Shown here in pieces: positions 8,021-56,249 of a stretch of 64,000 bases of DNA (positions are counted from its first letter, which is position 1; every line of letters starts with the position of its first letter). The stretch is from Desulforapulum autotrophicum (lineage in GTDB: Bacteria > Desulfobacterota > Desulfobacteria > Desulfobacterales > Desulfolunaceae): NCBI GenBank assembly GCA_020723285.1, contig DYJE01000010.1, positions 1 to 64,000 of the forward strand. The letters run 5' to 3'. The notes beneath the pieces are model-generated. The model worked only from the letters and a program-made list of their open reading frames with translations, had not been told where the DNA came from and made no database searches. The position numbers were made by a program, and so were the translations under genes.

Positions 8021-9484
8021 ATGAAATATCATTTAAAAAAAGACCTGTTCGAAGAACTCTTATCCCTTGAAAAAGAAACAAGCGAAACGTGGGCCTCATC
8101 CGGAAAAATGGGCCAATGCGAAAACTGGAACGCAAAAACACTGACGGATAAAGCCTGGTGTGTGGCAGAAAATTTAAAGTCCACACCTTACCTTTCAGGT
8201 CAAATCATTTCAGAAAAACACGGCCTCACACGGGACAGTCTCGCGGTGATATATAAAATGATCCAGCGGTCGGGGGCCTGCCGGACATTTTTCACAGAAT
8301 CTTCAAACAGGGATTATTTCAATGTGGTCAATCATTATTTCAATCACAGGCTTTACACTCTGGTATTTTTCGTGGGGACCACATGCCCGAGCCGTTGCGT
8401 GTACTGCCCCAACGTCAAAGTGGACAATGCCGGACGGCGAAAACTGGCGGGTTACGGCCGGAAAAAAGACCGGCTACTGTCGGAAGCCGCCCTTGAAAAG
8501 GTGTTCGGCGATCTTCACACCATGAAAAAAAAGGGAACGGATATCCTCGTCAAGATTTCCGGCGGTCTTGAACCCTTGACGGATATCATCACCATGAGTG
8601 CCATCATCCATCAGGCGAAAAAATATGACATCCCCGTCAAGCTGTTCACCAACGGCCTTCTGTTTTCTGATTCTCTCAGGCGCACAGCCGCACTTCAGAC
8701 CAGTGACATCCGGATCAGCCTGAGCACCCCCGACGAAACCCAGTATCAAAAGATCTGTTTTTCCGATTCAGGCCGTGGGAAAAGCCGCGCGCTGGCCGGA
8801 TTGATAAAAAGCATCCGGGAACTTGTGGCCGAGCGCGACAGGAGCGGAAGCCCATGCAAAATAGGTTTCAACAGCCTCGTCCTGCCCTCGAATCACACCC
8901 TTCTCGTGCCCCTTCTTGAAATGGCCAGGGACCTTGGGGTGGATTACGTGGATTTCAAGCCGGACTACTTTTCCACCTATCCCCAGGACACCCTCGAACA
9001 GATGGAAGATTCCGTCCGGGAGGCCCGAATCGTCGCGTCCCATGACTCGTACAAAAACCTTTTCGTCAATTTTACCTGTTCCCTGTCGCGAAGCGACCTG
9101 TTCTGGAACGACTGGAAAGGGACCTGCGACGCCCTGAGACAATCGGAATTCAAGATGTTCATCACACCTTTCGGCGATTGCAGTCCGGTGCATTACGGGG
9201 CTTTTCCCCATTCGGCTCGGTCTGTCAAAGGCGCTGTTTCAGCGTATTCCATCGGGGCTGTCAACCCTGAGCGCAGCTTGTTTGACGTGCTCCGCGATCC
9301 CGCGAAAACCCCTGAAATCGCCATGAAAAAGCTGAATCCTTTCGAGTTGATGCTGAGCCTTGAAATCAGTCGGGAAGAGCAGGACAAGGCTTTCGGGCTT
9401 CCTCTTTGTGTCAGTCCCTACCACACAAGGGAGAAAGCAAGAAATCCTGCGGATCTGTTTTTCCGTTTGAACATCACATCCTGA
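8021..9484 (+). CDS. Radical SAM protein, function unknown
   Basis: The 487-residue protein carries the radical SAM cluster motif CPSRCVYCP (CxxxCxxC) near residue 125, preceded by the strand LVFFVGTT, and the SAM-binding KISGGLEPL. It therefore should bind a 4Fe-4S cluster and cleave S-adenosylmethionine. The roughly 110-residue N-terminal region is helical and contains no family I recognise. Further cysteines in the C-terminal part (CSLSRSD, GTCDAL, GDCSPVHYG) could bind an auxiliary cluster as in SPASM/twitch proteins. AAGGAG precedes the ATG. A NIPSNAP gene follows after 12 bases, implying co-transcription and possibly a joint role. The substrate is unknown. Confidence 0.8.
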   Translation: MKYHLKKDLFEELLSLEKETSETWASSGKMGQCENWNAKTLTDKAWCVAENLKSTPYLSGQIISEKHGLTRDSLAVIYKMIQRSGACRTFFTESSNRDYFNVVNHYFNHRLYTLVFFVGTTCPSRCVYCPNVKVDNAGRRKLAGYGRKKDRLLSEAALEKVFGDLHTMKKKGTDILVKISGGLEPLTDIITMSAIIHQAKKYDIPVKLFTNGLLFSDSLRRTAALQTSDIRISLSTPDETQYQKICFSDSGRGKSRALAGLIKSIRELVAERDRSGSPCKIGFNSLVLPSNHTLLVPLLEMARDLGVDYVDFKPDYFSTYPQDTLEQMEDSVREARIVASHDSYKNLFVNFTCSLSRSDLFWNDWKGTCDALRQSEFKMFITPFGDCSPVHYGAFPHSARSVKGAVSAYSIGAVNPERSLFDVLRDPAKTPEIAMKKLNPFELMLSLEISREEQDKAFGLPLCVSPYHTREKARNPADLFFRLNITS

Positions 9485-47512: not shown

Positions 47513-47637
47513 CCATATCTCTTTGAACCTTGATGCCCGTTGCAATTTCATATCTGGAAATCTTAACGACCCATCTTACGATACCATCAAAAAAAAATTG
47601 CTCATACCTGCTCCAATCAGCCGGTCATGGGAAAGGA

Positions 47638-50600
47638 ATGCCTGAACCCACTATGAACTCTTCGCGTTTTTTCAAAAAAGCCATTGTCACTGCCGGCCAC
47701 ATCGCCTCAACCCGTCTTTTTTTCGGGAGATGCCCTTCGGGATACAGCAAACCGGCTCTCGTGTTTTTCCCTTACCAGACCACAACCCTGAACTGCGGGC
47801 TTTCTGGCATCGTGTCCTACCGTAAAGGCGATGCAAAGCCCGAGTCGGTGGATGTCGACAAACTGGAAGCCCTCTTCATCGCCATTGAAAACCTTGGGTT
47901 TCACTCCTGCACCAAAGACAAGAGGCCGCTTGGGGAGCATTATCTCGGTGGTGCCGGGCCGATTTCAGAATTCCGGGAACTAACAAGGGACCTCAACCGT
48001 GATGACCTGTTCAGCGGCATTTATTTTAACCCCCCTGTTTTTTCGGCACTCTCAACACTGGCCGGACGTGTCCATTCCCTGATCAGCACGGAAAAAGTGG
48101 TCCTTGATTCCCAGTCGGGCATACTTCCTCCTTCGGACGTGGACGTGATGACAGCCCGGATCGAGACCCTTCTGGATGTTCACTGGAGCCTTGAGAAAGA
48201 GATTTTCTCGAACATCCAGAAAGTCCGTGAACTGGCCAACCCCCTTCACGGGAATCCAACGGAAACGATGGTCTGTGTTTTCAAGAAAATCAACAGCGTC
48301 CTCAACGCCATTGACCGGCTTGAAGTCCGAGGCAGGGATTCCGCAGGCATTTCCCTGATGTTCACCCTGAGCAGAAACCAGTATGACGCATTCAAAAAAG
48401 CCCTCACCGACGAAGCACTCCAGGGCCAGTTCTCCAAACGTACCGGGAGCGACGTTCTTCTGAACAACTGTATCACCGTCCATGAAACAACGGATGAAAA
48501 CCAGACCAAAATATTCTGCCTTGCGTTCGCGTACAAAATCTCGGCGGAAATCGGCAGCCTGGGTGACAATGTGCATTTTCTCCGTCACACCATCAGCATC
48601 GATCCTGTTCTTCAGATTCTCGCAGGCCTCGACCATCTCAACCATACGGTTTCCGCCCATACAAGGTGGGCTTCCGTGGGAGCCATCTCCGAAGCCAACT
48701 GCCATCCGGTGGACAATGAAACAAAAGGTGGACGAACCCCCAAAAGCGGCGTGATCCACGTTTGCCTGAACGGCGACATCGACAATCATATCCAACTCAA
48801 AGACGAATACGAGGACCGCTACGATAAAATCCAGCCGGAGATCACCACAGACACCAAAATCATTCCCATGCAGATTGAACGGCACCTTAAATCCGGCTGC
48901 GATCTGAAAACGGCTTTCCTCAAATCACTGAACGATTTTGAAGGATCCCACGCCATCTCCATGCACAGCGATCTTGCACCGGGCAAACTGTTCCTGGGTC
49001 AACGGGGAAGCGGTCAGGCCGTTTTTGTGGGGATCGCCAAAAACCATTTCATGGCCGCCTCTGAAGTGTATGGCTTTGTGGAAGAAACCCCTTATTACAT
49101 TAAAATGGACGGAGAGAAAATCGTCGAAACGCCCAAAGGAAAAAGCCAGGGCCAGGTTTTCATTCTTCACCAGGATAAAAAAGATCCCACCTCCCTGGTG
49201 TCAGGCATCGAAGCCATGCATTACGACGGAACGCCCATCGTTCTAACCGACGAGGACGTGAAAACCACCCAGATCACCTCCAGGGATATCGACCGACAGC
49301 ATTTTTCCCATTATTTCCTCAAGGAGATCACCGAATCCCCGGTCTCTGTGGAGCGGACCATCCGAAACCGCTGGAAAATCAAGAACGATGGGGGCAGGGA
49401 ATACTATGTCACCAGCCTGGATGACCATGTGGTCCCCTCTTCCATCGTGGACGCTTTTAAAAACAAAACCATTCGCCGGGTCTTTCTTGTGGGTCAGGGA
49501 ACGGCAGGCGTTGCGGCCCTTGCCTGCTCCGGTATCATGAACCACTATCTGAACGACACCAGCATTCAGGTTACGGCTCTTAAAGCCTCTGAATTTTCAG
49601 GTTTTTTCGTAAGCGCAGACGACAGCCCGGACAGCATGAATGACACCCTGGTCATCGCCATCAGCCAGTCCGGAACCACCACGGACACCAATCTGGCCGT
49701 GGACATGGTCAGGGAGCGGGGAGCCCATACCCTTGCCATCGTGAACCGAAGGGATTCGGACCTGACGTTCAAAGTCAACGGCGTGATCTACACCAGTAGC
49801 GGAAGGGATATCGAAATGTCCGTGGCCTCCACCAAGGCGTTCTATTCCCAGATCGTGGCCGGAGCGATACTCGGGCTTCACATGGCCGCCATCACCGGCA
49901 AGCGGGACGCGCTGTTCGTCTCCGAAGAGATCAGGCAGATCCTGAACCTGCCCGCTGCCATGCGTAGCGTTCTCGATCTTCGCGACACGATCAGGGAATC
50001 CGCCGAGACCTACGCGGTCCAGAGGACTTACTGGGCCGTGGTTGGAAGCGGCTACAACAAATCATCGTCGGACGAGATCCGCATCAAACTCAGTGAACTC
50101 TGCTACAAAACCATCTCCTCCGATTTCGTGGAAGACAAGAAACACATCGACCTGTCGTCCGAACCGCTGATACTGGTCTGCGCTGCAGGAACACGGGAAA
50201 GCGTTCTGGGGGACGTCATCAAAGACACGGCCATTTTCAACGCGCACAAGGCCCTGCCCATTGTCATCGCCAACCAGGGCGAAGACCGTTTCGCCTCTTA
50301 TGCCAAAAGCGTGTTCCACGTGCCCGTGGTGAGCGAACACCTGGCCCCAATCATGAACACCCTGGCCGGCCATATCTGGGGCTATTACGCAGCCCTGTCC
50401 ATCAATGAAAGTTCCCGTTTCCTGTTCAATCAGCGTGAAGAGCTGGCAAGCCTCATTGACGGTTACGCTCAGAAAGGCATGAACGTTTACGAAATATTCC
50501 TTGAAAACGCCTTCAGGGAAAAAATTATGGAATTCTACCTGGAATTCAGAAAACGCAGCCAGGAGCAACGGCTCCCTTCGGTCATCGGTTTCAAGGCGGC

Positions 50601-51405
50601 GTCCGATCTCTGCCTGATCCTGAAGTATCTTTCAGGTAAACTTCCCGTCTCCGACTTCGAACTGGACTTCACCCTCAAGGGGACGCCCATGAACATGCTG
50701 GACACGCTTTTCGAATGCCTGAACCAGTGTATCAACAACCTCGCCCGTCCCATCGACGCCATCAAACACCAGGCCAAAACCGTCACCGTCGGCACCAGCC
50801 GAATCAGCGAAAAAGTCGAGGGTTTCCTCTTTGAATTCCTCGAATCCAACGGAATCACCCTGGCCCAGCTGACAAGTTCCAACATCCTTGTTCTCCGGAA
50901 TCTCCAAGGCGTGATCGGGGGCATCAACGGATTTGTGCTTTACAGAATCGACAATCTGAGTCTTCTCGGACAGGCCACAGCCACCACAGCCATCCATCTG
51001 GTGAAAAAAGACGGGGTTTTCAAATCCATTCCCTCACGGGTTGAAACAGATCACAGACTGACCGGAACCAAAAGCATCATCGTGCGGGAAGGCAACGTTT
51101 TTATCGGCAAAGGGCTGAAAGACAGCCGGAACATCCTGTCCATCCCCGTCAAATCAACACATTCCAACGTGATCGAATACATCATGTCCCTCAACGTGGT
51201 GTTCAAGGACGAAAAGATTCCCTTGTTCGCCAAGGTCAAAGCCCTGGGTGGAAAACATGAGCGAATCAGAAACCTGGTTCAAGAGCGGGGTGTCAGCTGG
51301 GATGACACATACCTTCAGTCGTTGAAACTCGATGACCTGTTCGGCCTCTCGGCTGAAAAGCTCGCCGACCGGATCACTGAAGCGTCAAACGGCAAAAGCC
51401 ATTAG
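47638..51405 (+). CDS. Very long GlmS-like protein (glutamine amidotransferase plus SIS domains plus extension)
   Basis: The product of about 1,255 residues is twice the length of normal glucosamine-fructose-6-phosphate aminotransferase. The N-terminal Ntn amidotransferase region shows NCGLSGIVSYRKG, RLEVRGRDSAGISL, HTRWASVGAISEANCHP and VCLNGDIDNH. Two SIS sugar-isomerase regions follow (VFLVGQGTAGVAALACS, VIAISQSGTTTDTNLA, SVASTKAFYSQ, then ILVCAAGTRESV). About 400 further residues at the C-terminus match nothing I know. The catalytic Cys is not at position 2 but near residue 53, which would need processing for activity. The start is uncertain: ATG 47638 has GGGA upstream, ATG 47653 is possible, and the frame is open back to 47530. 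Confidence 0.78.
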   Translation: MPEPTMNSSRFFKKAIVTAGHIASTRLFFGRCPSGYSKPALVFFPYQTTTLNCGLSGIVSYRKGDAKPESVDVDKLEALFIAIENLGFHSCTKDKRPLGEHYLGGAGPISEFRELTRDLNRDDLFSGIYFNPPVFSALSTLAGRVHSLISTEKVVLDSQSGILPPSDVDVMTARIETLLDVHWSLEKEIFSNIQKVRELANPLHGNPTETMVCVFKKINSVLNAIDRLEVRGRDSAGISLMFTLSRNQYDAFKKALTDEALQGQFSKRTGSDVLLNNCITVHETTDENQTKIFCLAFAYKISAEIGSLGDNVHFLRHTISIDPVLQILAGLDHLNHTVSAHTRWASVGAISEANCHPVDNETKGGRTPKSGVIHVCLNGDIDNHIQLKDEYEDRYDKIQPEITTDTKIIPMQIERHLKSGCDLKTAFLKSLNDFEGSHAISMHSDLAPGKLFLGQRGSGQAVFVGIAKNHFMAASEVYGFVEETPYYIKMDGEKIVETPKGKSQGQVFILHQDKKDPTSLVSGIEAMHYDGTPIVLTDEDVKTTQITSRDIDRQHFSHYFLKEITESPVSVERTIRNRWKIKNDGGREYYVTSLDDHVVPSSIVDAFKNKTIRRVFLVGQGTAGVAALACSGIMNHYLNDTSIQVTALKASEFSGFFVSADDSPDSMNDTLVIAISQSGTTTDTNLAVDMVRERGAHTLAIVNRRDSDLTFKVNGVIYTSSGRDIEMSVASTKAFYSQIVAGAILGLHMAAITGKRDALFVSEEIRQILNLPAAMRSVLDLRDTIRESAETYAVQRTYWAVVGSGYNKSSSDEIRIKLSELCYKTISSDFVEDKKHIDLSSEPLILVCAAGTRESVLGDVIKDTAIFNAHKALPIVIANQGEDRFASYAKSVFHVPVVSEHLAPIMNTLAGHIWGYYAALSINESSRFLFNQREELASLIDGYAQKGMNVYEIFLENAFREKIMEFYLEFRKRSQEQRLPSVIGFKAASDLCLILKYLSGKLPVSDFELDFTLKGTPMNMLDTLFECLNQCINNLARPIDAIKHQAKTVTVGTSRISEKVEGFLFEFLESNGITLAQLTSSNILVLRNLQGVIGGINGFVLYRIDNLSLLGQATATTAIHLVKKDGVFKSIPSRVETDHRLTGTKSIIVREGNVFIGKGLKDSRNILSIPVKSTHSNVIEYIMSLNVVFKDEKIPLFAKVKALGGKHERIRNLVQERGVSWDDTYLQSLKLDDLFGLSAEKLADRITEASNGKSH

Positions 51406-51417
51406 CGAGGTCAAAAC

Positions 51418-52050
51418 GTGGAAGAAGACAAAACATTTCAGAAACTCAGGGAAAACGAACGGGAAGTCCGGAAAAACCTCATTCTTGATGCGGCGCTCAA
51501 CGTGTTCGAAAAGAAAACGTTCTACAAAACATCCATGAGCGATATCGCCAAGGAACTTGGGGTTTCCACCGCCACACTGTACAGTTATTTTTCGAGCCAG
51601 GAAGAGCTGTTTCTCGAAGCCTTTATCCGTGATCTTTCCAATATCGACACCATTCTCAAAGCAAGTTTCGATCAGTCGTTCAACCCTGACGAAAACACGG
51701 CCATAGACACCCTGGCCGAAGCCATGGTGAGCCACCTTCTGAACAGCGAGGCCACGTTCCAGCTGATCACCTTGCTGATGACCGAACGGGACATGCCCGA
51801 ACATCTCAAGGATAAATTCTATCTGATGAAAAACGAGCTGAACGAGCGGGTGTTGAACGTGCTCAAACTTTCGGGCATCAAAGACCCGGACATCAAAACG
51901 TCACGGGCCTTTTTCGCATCCGTCATCGGTGCGATCCTTCTGTTCAAGAATTTTCCCGAACGCGAGATGAAAAACAACGATGCAAACATCATCGATCTTG
52001 TCCGGTACATTGTTTCGGTTTACAAAGCGGGAATTCAGGCTCTGGCCTGA
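51418..52050 (+). CDS. TetR-family transcriptional regulator
   Basis: The 210-residue protein has the TetR N-terminal helix-turn-helix: ILDAALNVFEKKTFYKTSMS, then DIAKELGVSTATLYSYFSSQ, ending EELFLEAF. The C-terminal ligand domain is variable, so the inducer is unknown. The start is GTG with GAGGT six bases upstream, only 12 bases after the GlmS-like gene, so the two are probably one operon and the regulator may control it. Confidence 0.9.
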   Translation: MEEDKTFQKLRENEREVRKNLILDAALNVFEKKTFYKTSMSDIAKELGVSTATLYSYFSSQEELFLEAFIRDLSNIDTILKASFDQSFNPDENTAIDTLAEAMVSHLLNSEATFQLITLLMTERDMPEHLKDKFYLMKNELNERVLNVLKLSGIKDPDIKTSRAFFASVIGAILLFKNFPEREMKNNDANIIDLVRYIVSVYKAGIQALA

Positions 52051-52102: not shown

Positions 52103-52717
52103 TCAATGAACCGGAGACCAGGGCAGATAACGGTCACGGGACCATCGCTGGTAAATCAGAAGCTCATGATTCACCGATTCAAGATCGAACTCCTCGCTGT
52201 CGAATTCTTCGTCATCCCAGTCGTCATCGTAGTCATCATCATCAATGTCTTCGGCGTCATCCTCGTCCCCGGAAAGGTCGTTCAGCTCCTGACAGAGTTC
52301 TTCGTATCCTGCAACACCCCCAATATCTTCCGGAGGACAGGCCCGTTCCCCATCGATGCATTCCACCGGAGACAACAGTTCGTCATTGGTGTAACGGTTG
52401 TCTTCCAGGGTGATGTCATGACGCCAGTTGTCTCCGAAGTCATAAACATAGGTAAAGGTCTGCCCCTTGTCTTTCACAAGGTCGTTCAGTCGGTACTTTC
52501 CTTCGAGGACTCCATCCTCTTCAGATTCCGGGATTTCCGTGTAATGGGTTTTTCCGATGATAAATTCGTGCAGATGGCTTTCGCCCCAGCCCATGACGGT
52601 CTGGATCACATCGTGGAGCCGGTCCAGTGTTATGTCCGCAGGGACGACAAATCGCCGCCATATTTCGGGTTCGATATCCTGGATCGCGATTCGGAGCAGG
52701 TACAGTCGTTGGGCCAT
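52103..52717 (-). CDS. Plasmid pRiA4b ORF-3-like family protein
   Basis: The 204-residue protein matches the PRiA4_ORF3 family: LLRIAIQDIEPEIWRRFVVP, LDRLHDVIQTVMGWGESHLH, then FTYVYDFGDNWRHDITLE and the acidic-plus-Cys region CPPEDIGGVAGYEEL. The function is unknown; homologues occur widely, often near mobile DNA. The C-terminal 50 residues are extremely acidic (DDDYDDDWDDEEFDSEEFD). It is the downstream neighbour of the FadR-type gene, 13 bases after that stop going the same way? The two lie on the minus strand, with the FadR-type gene upstream. Confidence 0.85.
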   Translation of the reverse strand: MAQRLYLLRIAIQDIEPEIWRRFVVPADITLDRLHDVIQTVMGWGESHLHEFIIGKTHYTEIPESEEDGVLEGKYRLNDLVKDKGQTFTYVYDFGDNWRHDITLEDNRYTNDELLSPVECIDGERACPPEDIGGVAGYEELCQELNDLSGDEDDAEDIDDDDYDDDWDDEEFDSEEFDLESVNHELLIYQRWSRDRYLPWSPVH

Positions 52718-52730
52718 GGTTCAACCTCCT

Positions 52731-53480
52731 TTACGGGTTATTGTTTTTTCCCGACATCATTTGCGTGATGTCTATTCTTTTGCCGGTGTTATCCTTCGGA
52801 AGGGATTCCCGGACAAGTGTTTCAGCAAACGCAAGGATTCTGCCCATGGCAAAGCTGGCAAATTCCTGATCTTTCCTGACCGCCGCATCATACAGGCTCC
52901 GGTAGTGACGGAGGATTTCCCTGGAACCTTCGATGGAATAAAAGTAATCCACGTAATATACATATAGGGACCGGATGGAGTTGAACACCAGACGGGCGAT
53001 CATGTTTCCGCCACGGCTGACGAACAGCTCATGAAACGCTGCATCGGCTTCGGTCAAATCGGCACGGCCGCTGTTCCGGGCCTCCATGATCCAAAGAATC
53101 TCTCCCAGGCGTCTGATATCGTCCTCATCGAACCGAAGCACGGCTTTCCCAGCCAGATGCACTTCGAAAACCTTCCGGATCTCCAGAAGAGAATCCAGGA
53201 TATCACTGTCTATGCGACTTGTGCACTGCAATATCCCCATCAGGAGAGAAATGGACGCCTCACCCCTGTAGTCGTTCACATAGGTCCCGCTCTTCGGTTT
53301 CTTCAAGAGAAGGCCTTTCTGGGTAAGGTTTCTTACCGCATCACGGACTGTGATCCGGCTGACACTGTAAGCTGCCGCCAGGTTTCTTTCCGAAGGAATC
53401 CGGGAACCGATGGGATACACTCCGTTGAAAATATCTTTCTGAAGGGTCAGGGACAGCGAACTTGAAAGGTTGTCCGTCAT
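52731..53480 (-). CDS. FadR/GntR-family transcriptional regulator (FCD domain)
   Basis: The protein of about 249 residues has a GntR winged helix (IPSERNLAAAYSVSRITVRD, AVRNLTQKGLLLKKPKSGTY) and a C-terminal all-helical FCD ligand domain, whose metal-binding site would use residues around DAAFHELFVSRGGN. FCD ligands are usually small carboxylic acids. I choose the ATG at 53480 because an operator-like TGGTCTTACCA lies directly upstream at 53490-53500; the longer frame to 53522 would place this inside the gene. A second such site lies before the glycyl radical enzyme gene. The pRiA4b-type gene follows on the same strand after 13 bases. Confidence 0.87.
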   Translation of the reverse strand: MTDNLSSSLSLTLQKDIFNGVYPIGSRIPSERNLAAAYSVSRITVRDAVRNLTQKGLLLKKPKSGTYVNDYRGEASISLLMGILQCTSRIDSDILDSLLEIRKVFEVHLAGKAVLRFDEDDIRRLGEILWIMEARNSGRADLTEADAAFHELFVSRGGNMIARLVFNSIRSLYVYYVDYFYSIEGSREILRHYRSLYDAAVRKDQEFASFAMGRILAFAETLVRESLPKDNTGKRIDITQMMSGKNNNP

Positions 53481-53489
53481 GGGTTTGCC

Positions 53490-53500
53490 TGGTCTTACCA
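53490..53500. promoter_or_regulatory. FadR-type operator at the regulator's own gene
   Basis: TGGTCTTACCA fits the FadR-subfamily consensus TNGTNNNACNA exactly. It is 10 bases upstream of the chosen start codon, a position suited to autorepression. Confidence 0.6.
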
Positions 53501-53842
53501 AAAAGAGATTCATACGCGCCAATCTTGGAAAAACCGGATGTTCAAGGCGTCATGAAATTGGACCGTCGCTGGATCATCCGGAACTGCTGATTCATACCAC
53601 GATCCCAGGGGTTAGACAAGATAGGATGTTCGACCCTGTGCATTTGAGAAGGACCGGGTCTCTGACGGCCTCCGCGGTCATTCCATTTTAACCCTCGTTT
53701 TCAGATACTTGGAATTCTCTTTCATCGGGCAACTCAGCCCCAGGCTCACCCGAATGTCGCATGGTGGGGGGCGATGCTCAAGCCTCGGGATGCGTGATTT
53801 TTTGATTGATTTTTATTTATACGAAAGGTAAGGTGGCTTATC

Positions 53843-53882: not shown

Positions 53883-56249
53883 ATGAATCCAGACACCATG
53901 AAGGACCGGATCACCCGGCTGAAAGAAGCGGTACAAAACATTCGCCCTGTGGTTTGCCCTGAAAGGGCCCTTTTATGGACCGATTATGCCCGAAAAAGGT
54001 CCCATAGAAAAAAGCCCCAGGTGATCCGAATGGCCGAAGCGCTGCATCATGTGCTTCTGAACAGAACCCTGTCCATATACCCCGATGAACTTCTGGTGGG
54101 GAATTTCACATCCGGCCGCGTGGGGGGTGGTATTTATCCGGAACTGCACGGAATCCAGGTCCTGATGGAGATCGGGGGATTCCCGGAGCGCCCTGTCAAT
54201 CCTCTTTCCATCAGCAAAAAGAATATCCGGAAGCTCAGGAGGATCATTCCATTCTGGCTTTTGCGAAACATTCCCGCCCAAACCTATGCCTCGCCTTTCA
54301 AAGCCATCCCCTTTCTCCTGGACCAGTTCACAGCCAGGCATTACCTGATCAACGAGCTTGGGGGCATTGTCCATTTCGCCCCGGATTACGAGTCACTCAT
54401 CCGCCTGGGAGCGGAAGGCCTCTCCGCCCGTGCGGCACTGCATATGACAAGGCCGGACAGGACGCCTGAACATCAAGCCTTTCTTCAAGCGGTCAAAATA
54501 TCTGCGAAAACCCTTTCAATGTTTGGCGTCAGGTATGCGGAACTCGCGGAAAGCATGGCCATGGACACCCCCGATACCCAGCGGCGAGATGAACTACTTG
54601 AAACAGCGCGCATCTGCCGGAAAGTCCCTGGAAAACCGGCGGAGACATTTCACGAGGCCCTTCAGTCCATCCTCCTTGCCCACATCGCCATCAATCATGA
54701 AAGCATCGATGTAACCATCTGCCTGGGACGCATGGATCTGATTCTTTATCCCTATTATTTGAAGGACATCGAACAAGGCATTCTCACACCGGACAAGGCC
54801 AGGGAACTCCTCGCCTGCTTTGCAGTGAAACTCTGCGAAACGGTTCCCGCCTTTTCAAAACTGGTGGGCCGTTTCCACAGCGGACTTCCCAGTTTTCAGA
54901 CCCTTGTGGTGGGCGGCGTTGACAAAGACGGCAACGACGCATCCAACGCCTTGAGTATCCTGTTCCTTAACATTATGAACGATCTTCGCATGCGGCAACC
55001 GAATTTCCAGGCGCGCATCCATGCAAACGCCCCGGCAACCTATCTTGAAGCCGTTTACCGGACGCTGGCCCAAGGGTCGAATCCCCTGGCTGTGTATAAC
55101 GACGATGTCATCATCCCCACCATGACCGATCACGGTTACTCTCTTGAAGACGCCAGGAACTACACCCCCATCGGATGCGTGGAACCCACATGTCAGGGCA
55201 AGAGTTTCGGGTCCACCGACGCCGCCCTGTTCAACACGCCCATGCTCATCGAACTGGCCCTGAACCGGGGTCGCCGGTTTGGTTCGATGCTCCGGGAAGG
55301 TGCCAAAACTCAGCCGCCCTCCACCATGAACACCATGGACGATGTGTTCAAAGCTTTCGAGACACAGCTCCAGTACAAACTTTCGAAACTGATCACCGAT
55401 CTCCGGCACGTTGAGACAGCCAACCGCCGTTTCAAACCCACCCCCCTTTCAAGCATGCTCATCGACGGCTGCATCGACCAGGGAACGTGTTCCACCGCAG
55501 GCGGGGCCAAGTACAATTTTTCAGGCATCCAGTGCGTTGGGCCCACCGAAGCCGGAGATTCCCTTTACGCCATCGAAAAACTGGTGTTCACAGACCGTGT
55601 CGTCTCCTTGAAGGAACTTGTGACTCATCTTAAAAAAAACGTTCGCGATCCTGTCATGGCCGCACGGATGAAGAACCTTTCTGCTTTCGGCAACGGGGAC
55701 GCCGAAACCGACCGGTGGACGTCCAGGGTCATCGATGGTTTTGTTTCAATCCTCAACAACTCCGGCTTGAACACACGGGGCGGCCGTTATGTGACCGGAC
55801 TCTATTCCAGTACGTCCCACGACTATTTTGGATCTGTGACCTCCGCCCTTCCCAGCGGACGGAAAAAAGGAGAGCCCTTCCCTTCCGGCCTTGCCCCGAG
55901 CAACGGGCGTGACAGACATGGGGCCACGGCCCTTCTGAATTCCATGAACCATATCGATGTCCGGCAGTGCCTGAACGGTGTGAATTTCAACATGAAATTT
56001 CAGAAAACGGCACTGACCGGCGACCAGGGCCGAATAACGTTGAAAGCCCTCCTCACACCCTATTTCAACCGGGGGGGCATGCAGGTCCAGGTCAACGTTC
56101 TTGACAGAAAAACCCTGATGGAGGCCCGGGATTTCCCCGAACGTCACCCCGGCCTTCTTGTGAGAGTCTCTGGTTATTCCGCCTATTTCAGTGATCTTTC
56201 AGACGCCATGAAAGACGAGATCATCCGTCGGACGGAGATCACGGCCTGA
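53883..56249 (+). CDS. Glycyl radical enzyme (pyruvate formate-lyase superfamily), substrate unknown
   Basis: The 788-residue protein has the PFL domain and a C-terminal glycine-radical domain. The thiyl-radical Cys and the general base Glu lie in IGCVEPTCQG (about residue 435), and the radical Gly in LLVRVSGYSAYFSDL (about residue 765). GCVEP is typical of dehydratase-like members (glycerol, propanediol, choline, hydroxyproline, isethionate types) rather than PFL itself, but the active-site residues do not let me name the substrate. AAGGAG precedes the ATG. No radical SAM activase is next to it, which is unusual. The oxygen-sensitive radical implies anaerobic use. A FadR-type regulator with matching operators lies divergently upstream. 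Confidence 0.88.
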   Translation: MNPDTMKDRITRLKEAVQNIRPVVCPERALLWTDYARKRSHRKKPQVIRMAEALHHVLLNRTLSIYPDELLVGNFTSGRVGGGIYPELHGIQVLMEIGGFPERPVNPLSISKKNIRKLRRIIPFWLLRNIPAQTYASPFKAIPFLLDQFTARHYLINELGGIVHFAPDYESLIRLGAEGLSARAALHMTRPDRTPEHQAFLQAVKISAKTLSMFGVRYAELAESMAMDTPDTQRRDELLETARICRKVPGKPAETFHEALQSILLAHIAINHESIDVTICLGRMDLILYPYYLKDIEQGILTPDKARELLACFAVKLCETVPAFSKLVGRFHSGLPSFQTLVVGGVDKDGNDASNALSILFLNIMNDLRMRQPNFQARIHANAPATYLEAVYRTLAQGSNPLAVYNDDVIIPTMTDHGYSLEDARNYTPIGCVEPTCQGKSFGSTDAALFNTPMLIELALNRGRRFGSMLREGAKTQPPSTMNTMDDVFKAFETQLQYKLSKLITDLRHVETANRRFKPTPLSSMLIDGCIDQGTCSTAGGAKYNFSGIQCVGPTEAGDSLYAIEKLVFTDRVVSLKELVTHLKKNVRDPVMAARMKNLSAFGNGDAETDRWTSRVIDGFVSILNNSGLNTRGGRYVTGLYSSTSHDYFGSVTSALPSGRKKGEPFPSGLAPSNGRDRHGATALLNSMNHIDVRQCLNGVNFNMKFQKTALTGDQGRITLKALLTPYFNRGGMQVQVNVLDRKTLMEARDFPERHPGLLVRVSGYSAYFSDLSDAMKDEIIRRTEITA

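Follow-up and report, generated by a model that had tools for sequence, protein, structure and literature searches.

The stretch of DNA analyzed here, referred to as the window, comprises 64,000 nucleotides (nt) of Desulforapulum autotrophicum (GenBank assembly GCA_020723285.1, contig DYJE01000010.1, positions 1 to 64,000). It contains an uninterrupted open reading frame (ORF; 47530-51405, + strand, 1291 open codons) for an unusually large protein resembling glucosamine-6-phosphate synthase, GlmS, the enzyme that supplies bacterial cell-wall synthesis with its first amino sugar. An earlier note, drawn up from the letters of the window, had described an oversized GlmS-like protein with a buried catalytic cysteine, and this description is borne out by the intact ORF and by a layout common to its relatives. 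The protein, called the giant in the following, probably serves as the GlmS of its lineage, and its nucleophile lies behind an N-terminal extension that is most simply read as a propeptide. Translation from the ATG at 47638 yields 1255 residues with the Cys as residue 53, as the earlier note had it, and all residue numbers of the window protein are counted from this codon; from the ATG at 47653 the same Cys becomes residue 48. The Met of the closest relative (L002, 71% identity to the window protein) aligns with the ATG at 47653, and in both ORFs an AAAGGA lies 14-15 nt upstream of the Met at this second position. Because of this alignment and the similarly spaced AAAGGA, the ATG at 47653 is the likeliest start, 47 residues ahead of the Cys; neither ATG has an ideal ribosome-binding site.

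Related loci were represented by the best 80 of 134 relatives. The layout recurs in the 68 loci whose ORF is free of contig-end cuts, and the Cys aligns with that of the window in 69 of 69 sequences; the 12 loci with a cut ORF were omitted from this alignment, and one of them (L052, truncated at its 3' end) was included again in the later profile-profile alignment. The survey of homologues that the earlier note had proposed thus recovered the same layout. One exception is L048, whose match to the window protein ends at residue 1119. The ORF of L048 terminates early, at position 9465; a sequencing error or a frameshift close to the C-terminus is the likely cause. Judged by these alignments, the window protein is a member of a conserved family and no fusion artefact. 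Residue counts refer to a set of 93 family members, which omits L109 (cut at the 5' end) as well as L108, L111, and L114, judged by their N-termini to be repeats of L052, L042, and L036. An extended ORF with a visible Cys (L093) is not in this set, where its 840-residue frame was kept instead.

Both SIS and GATase_6 were detected by Pfam above their cut-offs in the window protein, and all 70 members scanned contain GATase_6. Against four canonical GlmS proteins, a profile-profile alignment reached 100% probability (E 7.9e-75). For structure prediction by AlphaFold2, an N-terminal and a C-terminal piece were folded separately. The N-terminal model (mean predicted local distance difference test score, pLDDT, 88.3) matched the glutaminase domain of E. 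coli GlmS (1xff) with a VIA-align Z of 27.1 and a root-mean-square deviation (rmsd) of 1.7 over 230 aligned residues; PurF chains also matched it (Z 18-20). The structure prediction suggested by the earlier note returned a glutaminase fold for the N-terminal piece and, with moderate confidence, a PAS/GAF-like fold for the C-terminal piece. Two insertions that the earlier note had left out of its description of the glutaminase domain became apparent, one spanning residues 67-205 and a second of about 65 additional residues within 241-335.

Twenty-four GlmS sites, numbered according to what we take to be the E. coli positions, were mapped by motif onto the 93 members. A single residue is found in all members at 21 sites, and at 19 of these it is the GlmS residue: Cys1, Arg26, Arg73, Trp74, Asn98, Gly99, Asp123, Gly301, Thr302, Gln348, Ser349, Thr352, Val399, Ser401, Lys485, Glu488, His504, Ala602, and Lys603. 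Invariant are, in other words, the glutaminase residues Cys1 (by motif), Arg73, Asn98, Gly99, and Asp123 and the residues Lys485, Glu488, His504, Gln348, Ser349, and Thr352 of the SIS pair. The position of Ser347 is occupied by Ser (77 members) or Thr (16), and that of Arg599 by Lys (82) or Arg (11). When ten motifs were tested on one canonical relative, nine appeared at the expected index or one lower, and one gave no hit in the form used. The tail motif HQAKTVTVG is present in all 93 members, and the window tail (1037-1055) reads RPIDAIKHQAKTVTVGTSR. Shuffling the 336-residue C-terminal piece of the window protein 200000 times produced the pattern AK[ST]VTV in 8 cases. This tail and its lysine, which are terminal in GlmS, are internal in all 93 members, about 200 residues before the protein end.

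Family members occur in two forms: 79 of 93 are extended before the Cys and 14 begin with Met-Cys, the short form being defined by a Met directly ahead of the Cys. No member among the 93 lacks both this Met and the extension. Homologues starting right at the Cys, which the earlier note had regarded as telling against a buried nucleophile, thus make up a part of the family, and the larger part is extended. A mixture of extended and Met-Cys forms, and nothing else, is to be expected if the working protein begins at the Cys. The extension itself keeps a fixed register; besides the Pro and Phe of its VFFP motif (Table 1), Leu is found at -2 in 58 and Asn at -4 in 41 of the 79 extended members. In an IQ-TREE phylogeny calculated from residue 206 onward, which excludes the extension (quick search, support by the Shimodaira-Hasegawa-like approximate likelihood ratio test, no bootstrap), the state changes six times between extended and Met-Cys, at least four of these changes being forced by starred branches, and the direction of change is not fixed by the tree. 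A smaller FastTree with a canonical outgroup also has six changes, only two of them forced. Which of the two states is ancestral may hinge on L092 (genome G200), a very divergent Met-Cys member from outside the order that sits on a long branch and matches the C-terminal profile more weakly (E 3.5e-29).

Removal of Met exposes the N-terminal Cys in GFAT according to PMC7948480, and PMC7056826 describes autocatalytic propeptide cleavage in many PurF enzymes. By analogy with PurF, the simplest reading of the extension is a propeptide that would be removed to free the N-terminal Cys. Propeptide removal, which the earlier note had named as one of two options, is well supported indirectly by the invariant Cys, the fixed-register extension under purifying selection (see below), and the Met-Cys sisters; the cleavage itself we infer. 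No GlmS with a propeptide, no giant GlmS, and no missing glmS in Desulfobacterales was found in searches of the open-licence PMC literature, outside which subscription journals mostly lie. The genome of D. autotrophicum also encodes a protein that we take from its sequence to be PurF-like (L089, C18 near 8116-8200), with a short stretch before the Cys, a Glu-Cys junction, and no FFP motif. This Glu-Cys junction resembles that of propeptide-type PurF.

Alternatively, the extension might be retained as a docking or regulatory piece. The Cys would then stay internal, and the enzyme would work with free ammonia or with its nucleophile arranged differently. This alternative is unlikely, albeit the best of the competing explanations. 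It would account for an FFP motif in fixed register, more conserved than a throw-away leader needs to be. However, the equivalents of Cys1, Arg73, Trp74, Asn98, Gly99, and Asp123 are invariant, which speaks against an ammonia-only enzyme because such an enzyme would not need them, and the 14 members without the extension start exactly with Met-Cys.

The distribution of the giant across genomes bears on its function. A hand count of 227 distinct genomes (G000-G226) gave 118 with the giant, 99 with canonical GlmS, 10 with neither form, and none with both. Counted as giants were matches below the cut-off in frames of at least 935 residues, the two pieces in G005, and the protein of G097; not each of them was aligned. 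The genomes were picked by kinship within the phylum, and the counts are non-independent through phylogeny. Among 78 genomes in the order search, 73 contain the giant and two canonical GlmS (G012 and G073); a direct search of these two found no giant. In G005 the giant is split over two contigs, which brings the order total to 74 of 78. The class search (60 genomes) yielded 56 with the giant, one with canonical GlmS, and three with neither at E 1e-40, and one of these three, G097, revealed an intact giant on direct search. The phylum search (118 genomes) yielded 97 with canonical GlmS, 14 with the giant, and seven with neither, with more first-look candidates in some genomes than were scored. 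In a separate search, a profile (A2) of the C-terminal region that has no counterpart in canonical GlmS, from an alignment omitting L048 and L052, matched in exactly these 14 of 118 genomes and in none of the 97 with the canonical form. Both kinds occur in different genomes of one family (f89), and within a single genus (g22) the giant is present in G026 and G086 and canonical GlmS in G073. Such a switch of form within a genus is an argument that both proteins do the same job. By presence and absence of the two forms, the giant takes the place of canonical GlmS across the genomes sampled. G058 and G060, both from the order, contain two giant frames each (1269 and 1313 residues, and 1331 and 968 residues, respectively).

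In favor of this role, the genome of D. autotrophicum contains glmM above cut-off, whereas nagB had no match there and no GlmS exceeded its cut-off, NagB-II and GlmD-type routes not being searched separately. No GlmU was found above cut-off in this genome, and UDP-N-acetylglucosamine synthesis downstream of GlmS may also be unusual here. Two further observations concern this step: a nucleotidyltransferase-like part was picked up by the GlmU search on C63:4067-4912, and a 412-residue ORF adjoining glmM (C25:148599-151173) weakly matches the second half of the GlmU model.

A new role for the protein, which the earlier note had considered, is unsupported, since the GlmS catalytic residues are kept and canonical GlmS is replaced in the genomes examined. 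The related idea that the giant aminates a different sugar or has a new role beside GlmS is slightly less probable than a retained extension. It could draw on the score below the curated GlmS cut-off and on the Ala found in place of Ser303 in all 93 members. Against it, the giant never occurs together with canonical GlmS in the 227 genomes, which leaves no separate GlmS to do the job, and the search of its own genome found no nagB.

Codon comparisons indicate that the extension is part of the protein. The pooled ratio of nonsynonymous to synonymous differences (pN/pS) was 0.48 in the extension (11 close pairs) and 0.35 across the 45 codons that open the predicted mature part (10 pairs). The set consisted of 12 close pairs, with some loci in two pairs, and 3 of 24 comparisons were skipped for low ungapped identity. 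Close pairs were used because the comparison of the window with L002, with 33 of 48 extension codons nonsynonymous, was uninformative. By this measure the extension is under purifying selection, and the ratio together with the fixed Pro points to translation of the leader ahead of the nucleophile Cys. An untranslated extension with the real start at or near the Cys, for example at the CTG two codons before it, has accordingly been rejected as improbable. Its appeal lies in the CTG codon that precedes Asn-Cys in the window and in the 14 relatives that begin at Met-Cys. However, the codon directly ahead of the Cys is a start codon in none of 66 extended loci, ATG occurs within 12 codons ahead of it in only two and any of ATG, GTG, or TTG in 21 of the 66, and the pN/pS of the extension is near that of the mature codons. 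Moreover, in 45 of 66 extended loci a start codon lying 20-78 residues (median 53) ahead of the Cys has a Shine-Dalgarno-like site before it, a count without chance control.

A lipoprotein or export signal with a lipidated Cys is very improbable and was rejected: the leader does end at an invariant Cys and has basic residues near its start, but a lipobox-like pattern precedes the Cys in 1 of 79 extended members, a stretch of membrane-strength hydrophobicity (Kyte-Doolittle mean of at least 1.6 over 19 residues) occurs in 2 of 79, and the Cys is followed by a GlmS glutaminase fold. Apart from the unusual size, nothing speaks for the frameshift or misassembly of two genes that the earlier note had allowed for, and this explanation, contradicted by 68 complete relatives of the same layout with L048 differing only after residue 1119, was dismissed as having next to no probability.

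The earlier note had counted about 400 extra residues after the SIS domains and called this C-terminal region unknown. About 320 residues were counted instead (936-1255), and the region is unknown in part only: a GlmS-type tail lies inside it (1037-1055), and the remaining domain has no Pfam family. The C-terminal model has a mean pLDDT of 85.7 and a predicted template modelling score of 0.57. Its best fold match is to residues 174..361 of 7jsr (Z 9.5, rmsd 5.1, 168 aligned, 9% identity), behind which numerous GAF and PAS domains rank with Z of about 7 and less, where values below 8 may reflect a common arrangement; the best Foldseek E-value for the domain was 0.01. The fold matches suggest, with moderate confidence, a PAS/GAF-like sensor domain. 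The profile search recommended by the earlier note found no consistent Pfam family: among 25 families listed for the C-terminal pieces of 68 members, PAS and GAF were absent and no family was listed in more than four members, the ACT family appearing in two (best E 0.026). When PDB sequences were searched with a profile of the C-terminal alignment, no match had an E-value below 0.87, and 7jsr was not among the matches at E <=10. The region was not found a second time in the D. autotrophicum genome (E <=1), nor in plasmids (E 1e-5), and a viral fold library returned weak rows only, some of them GAF-like and none at E <=0.001.

Table 1. Features of the giant gene and its upstream neighbor in the window.
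Feature	Position	Strand	Basis and remarks
Penicillin-binding transpeptidase-domain protein, 496 aa	46022..47512	+	Pfam PF00905, E 2e-36
N-terminal extension (putative propeptide), residues 6-52	47653..47793	+	Met aligned with that of L002; alternative start 47638; extension in 79/93 members
VFFP motif of the extension, Pro at -8 from Cys	47761..47772	+	Pro in 79/79, Phe at -9 in 74/79
Cys53, nucleophile and predicted N-terminus of the mature protein; taken as GlmS Cys1	47794..47796	+	Cys in 93/93; directly after Met in 14/93
Helical insertion 1, residues 67-205	47836..48252	+	AlphaFold2 helices; between Cys strand and first glutaminase-fold helix
Glutaminase core (class II GATase, N-terminal nucleophile (Ntn) type), residues 206-547	48253..49278	+	VIA-align to 1xff; GATase_6; catalytic residues
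SIS1-SIS2 sugar isomerase domains, residues 556-935	49303..50442	+	Pfam SIS, 3.4e-15; GFAT/GlmS PDB chains by sequence; catalytic residues
Helical insertion between SIS2 and tail, residues 936-1036	50443..50745	+	AlphaFold2 helices, C-terminal model; window piece without Pfam family
GlmS-type isomerase tail, residues 1037-1055, K1047 taken as GlmS Lys603	50746..50802	+	HQAKTVTVG in 93/93
Putative PAS/GAF-like domain and terminal helices, residues 1061-1252	50818..51393	+	AlphaFold2; fold match 7jsr

The neighborhood was as the earlier note had described it, with a small transpeptidase gene ahead of the giant and a TetR regulator starting at 51418, 12 bases downstream. Its proposal of a dedicated cell-wall or amino-sugar locus holds for the first of these neighbors and fails for the second. 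By tblastn, 42 of the 80 loci contain a transpeptidase homologue (59 of the 80 extend at least 1.5 kb upstream), and the transpeptidase was the only one of ten window neighbors tested to match there. A TetR homologue was found in none of the 80 loci (tblastn, E 1e-8), 58 of which have at least 1.5 kb downstream, and a dedicated operon under TetR control was ruled out on this ground. ORF clustering assigned 42 transpeptidase ORFs to 41 loci, all 42 on the same strand as the giant and 29 ending within 300 nt of it. In the 49 loci with 5 kb upstream, MetG-like (41), transpeptidase (34), PSP1-like (31), and HolB-like (29) ORFs recur, names other than transpeptidase being our reading of the sequences, and all clustered ORFs lie on the strand of the giant. 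As far as these names hold, the giant gene lies in a housekeeping neighborhood in many relatives. Farther downstream in the window, a protein of the PRiA4_ORF3 family (52103-52717, - strand; Pfam E 5.9e-56) adjoins a GntR/FCD regulator (52731-53522), and the ORF at 53883-56249 (+ strand) resembles, by its sequence, a glycyl radical enzyme of the pyruvate formate-lyase type.

We assign a probability of about 0.77 to the reading that the giant is the glucosamine-6-phosphate synthase of its lineage, made as a precursor from which a leader is removed before Cys53 and equipped with a sensor-fused tail. The enzymatic activity is suggested by the replacement pattern and the pathway genes. Several points weigh against this reading. 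The window protein scores 234.8 bits with the GlmS equivalog model TIGR01135, below the curated cut-off of 418.05, and this cut-off was reached by no giant in the order, class, and phylum searches. The GlmS-model search threshold missed the intact giant of G097, and 10 of 227 genomes have neither form. The profile-profile alignment placed the N-terminal strand of GlmS at residue 214 and the tail near 939; as this alignment is global and misplaces both ends, the Cys strand and the tail were equated with those of GlmS by motif, and not by alignment or structure. The structural match to GlmS starts at residue 213 (GlmS residue 10), after the Cys strand. AlphaFold2 pLDDT is below 50 at residues 47-57 and 59-61, so the model is silent on the placement of the Cys in the precursor. 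Two substitutions, Thr76 to Ser and Ser303 to Ala, are fixed in all 93 members, and Val occupies the position of His77 in 84. The sensor domain is based on a moderate fold match. Finally, the negative result for nagB in its own genome does not extend to NagB-II and GlmD-type routes. Judged by its sequence, the giant is best regarded as a GlmS variant outside the range of TIGR01135, which lacks the cut-off score and a Cys at position 2 yet is GlmS-like by its kept residues and replacement pattern.

If the giant is a GlmS made as a precursor, the 47-residue extension would be removed just before Cys53, either autocatalytically, in the manner of PurF, or through the action of a protease. The freed Cys53 would hydrolyze glutamine in the Ntn glutaminase domain, and ammonia would pass W344 to the SIS domains, where K817, E820, and H836 together with the internal tail lysine K1047 would convert fructose-6-phosphate to glucosamine-6-phosphate, which would feed peptidoglycan and lipopolysaccharide. 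K1047 would close the sugar site although it is not at the chain end. The PAS/GAF-like domain, fused downstream of the tail, is probably a metabolite sensor that determines where the tail lid is placed. A more speculative extension, which we consider possible but hold with less than even confidence, is that the giant is a GlmS zymogen, inactive until the FFP-type leader is clipped, with a lid between helical insertion and sensor, so that entry into cell-wall synthesis would be gated once by maturation and continuously by sensing. The internal tail and putative sensor domain suggest a form of GlmS control, which to our knowledge is not known from E. coli GlmS or human GFAT.

According to PMC7948480, loss of GlmS kills E. 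coli, and GlmS feeds cell-wall synthesis. In the sampled order, 74 of 78 genomes appear to rely on a giant that goes unrecognized as GlmS by the standard model, and such genomes can therefore look as if they were without the enzyme. Furthermore, sisters with and without the leader offer a ready-made test of propeptide gain and loss in Ntn amidotransferases.

Among known systems, GlmS and GFAT share with the giant the class II glutaminase, two SIS domains, a tail with the catalytic lysine, the catalytic residues, and the position in the pathway. Unlike them, the giant has about 1250 instead of about 610 residues, scores below the TIGR01135 cut-off, encodes its Cys away from position 2 in 79 of 93 members, carries insertions of about 140, 65, and 100 residues, and has an internal tail followed by an extra, putatively PAS/GAF-like domain. 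Among Ntn-type enzymes, GltB has a propeptide, and PurF combines its glutaminase with a phosphoribosyltransferase domain and not with SIS. PurF of the Bacillus and plant type resembles the giant in its Ntn class II glutaminase and in the leader before the nucleophile Cys (PMC7056826), whereas the leader of the PurF-like protein in the same genome is short and without the FFP motif. The 180-kDa glutamate dehydrogenase of M. smegmatis (7jsr) provides the best fold match with its N-terminal sensor segment (Z 9.5); its catalytic domain is different, and with an rmsd of 5.1 and 9% identity the likeness possibly reflects only the common PAS/GAF arrangement.

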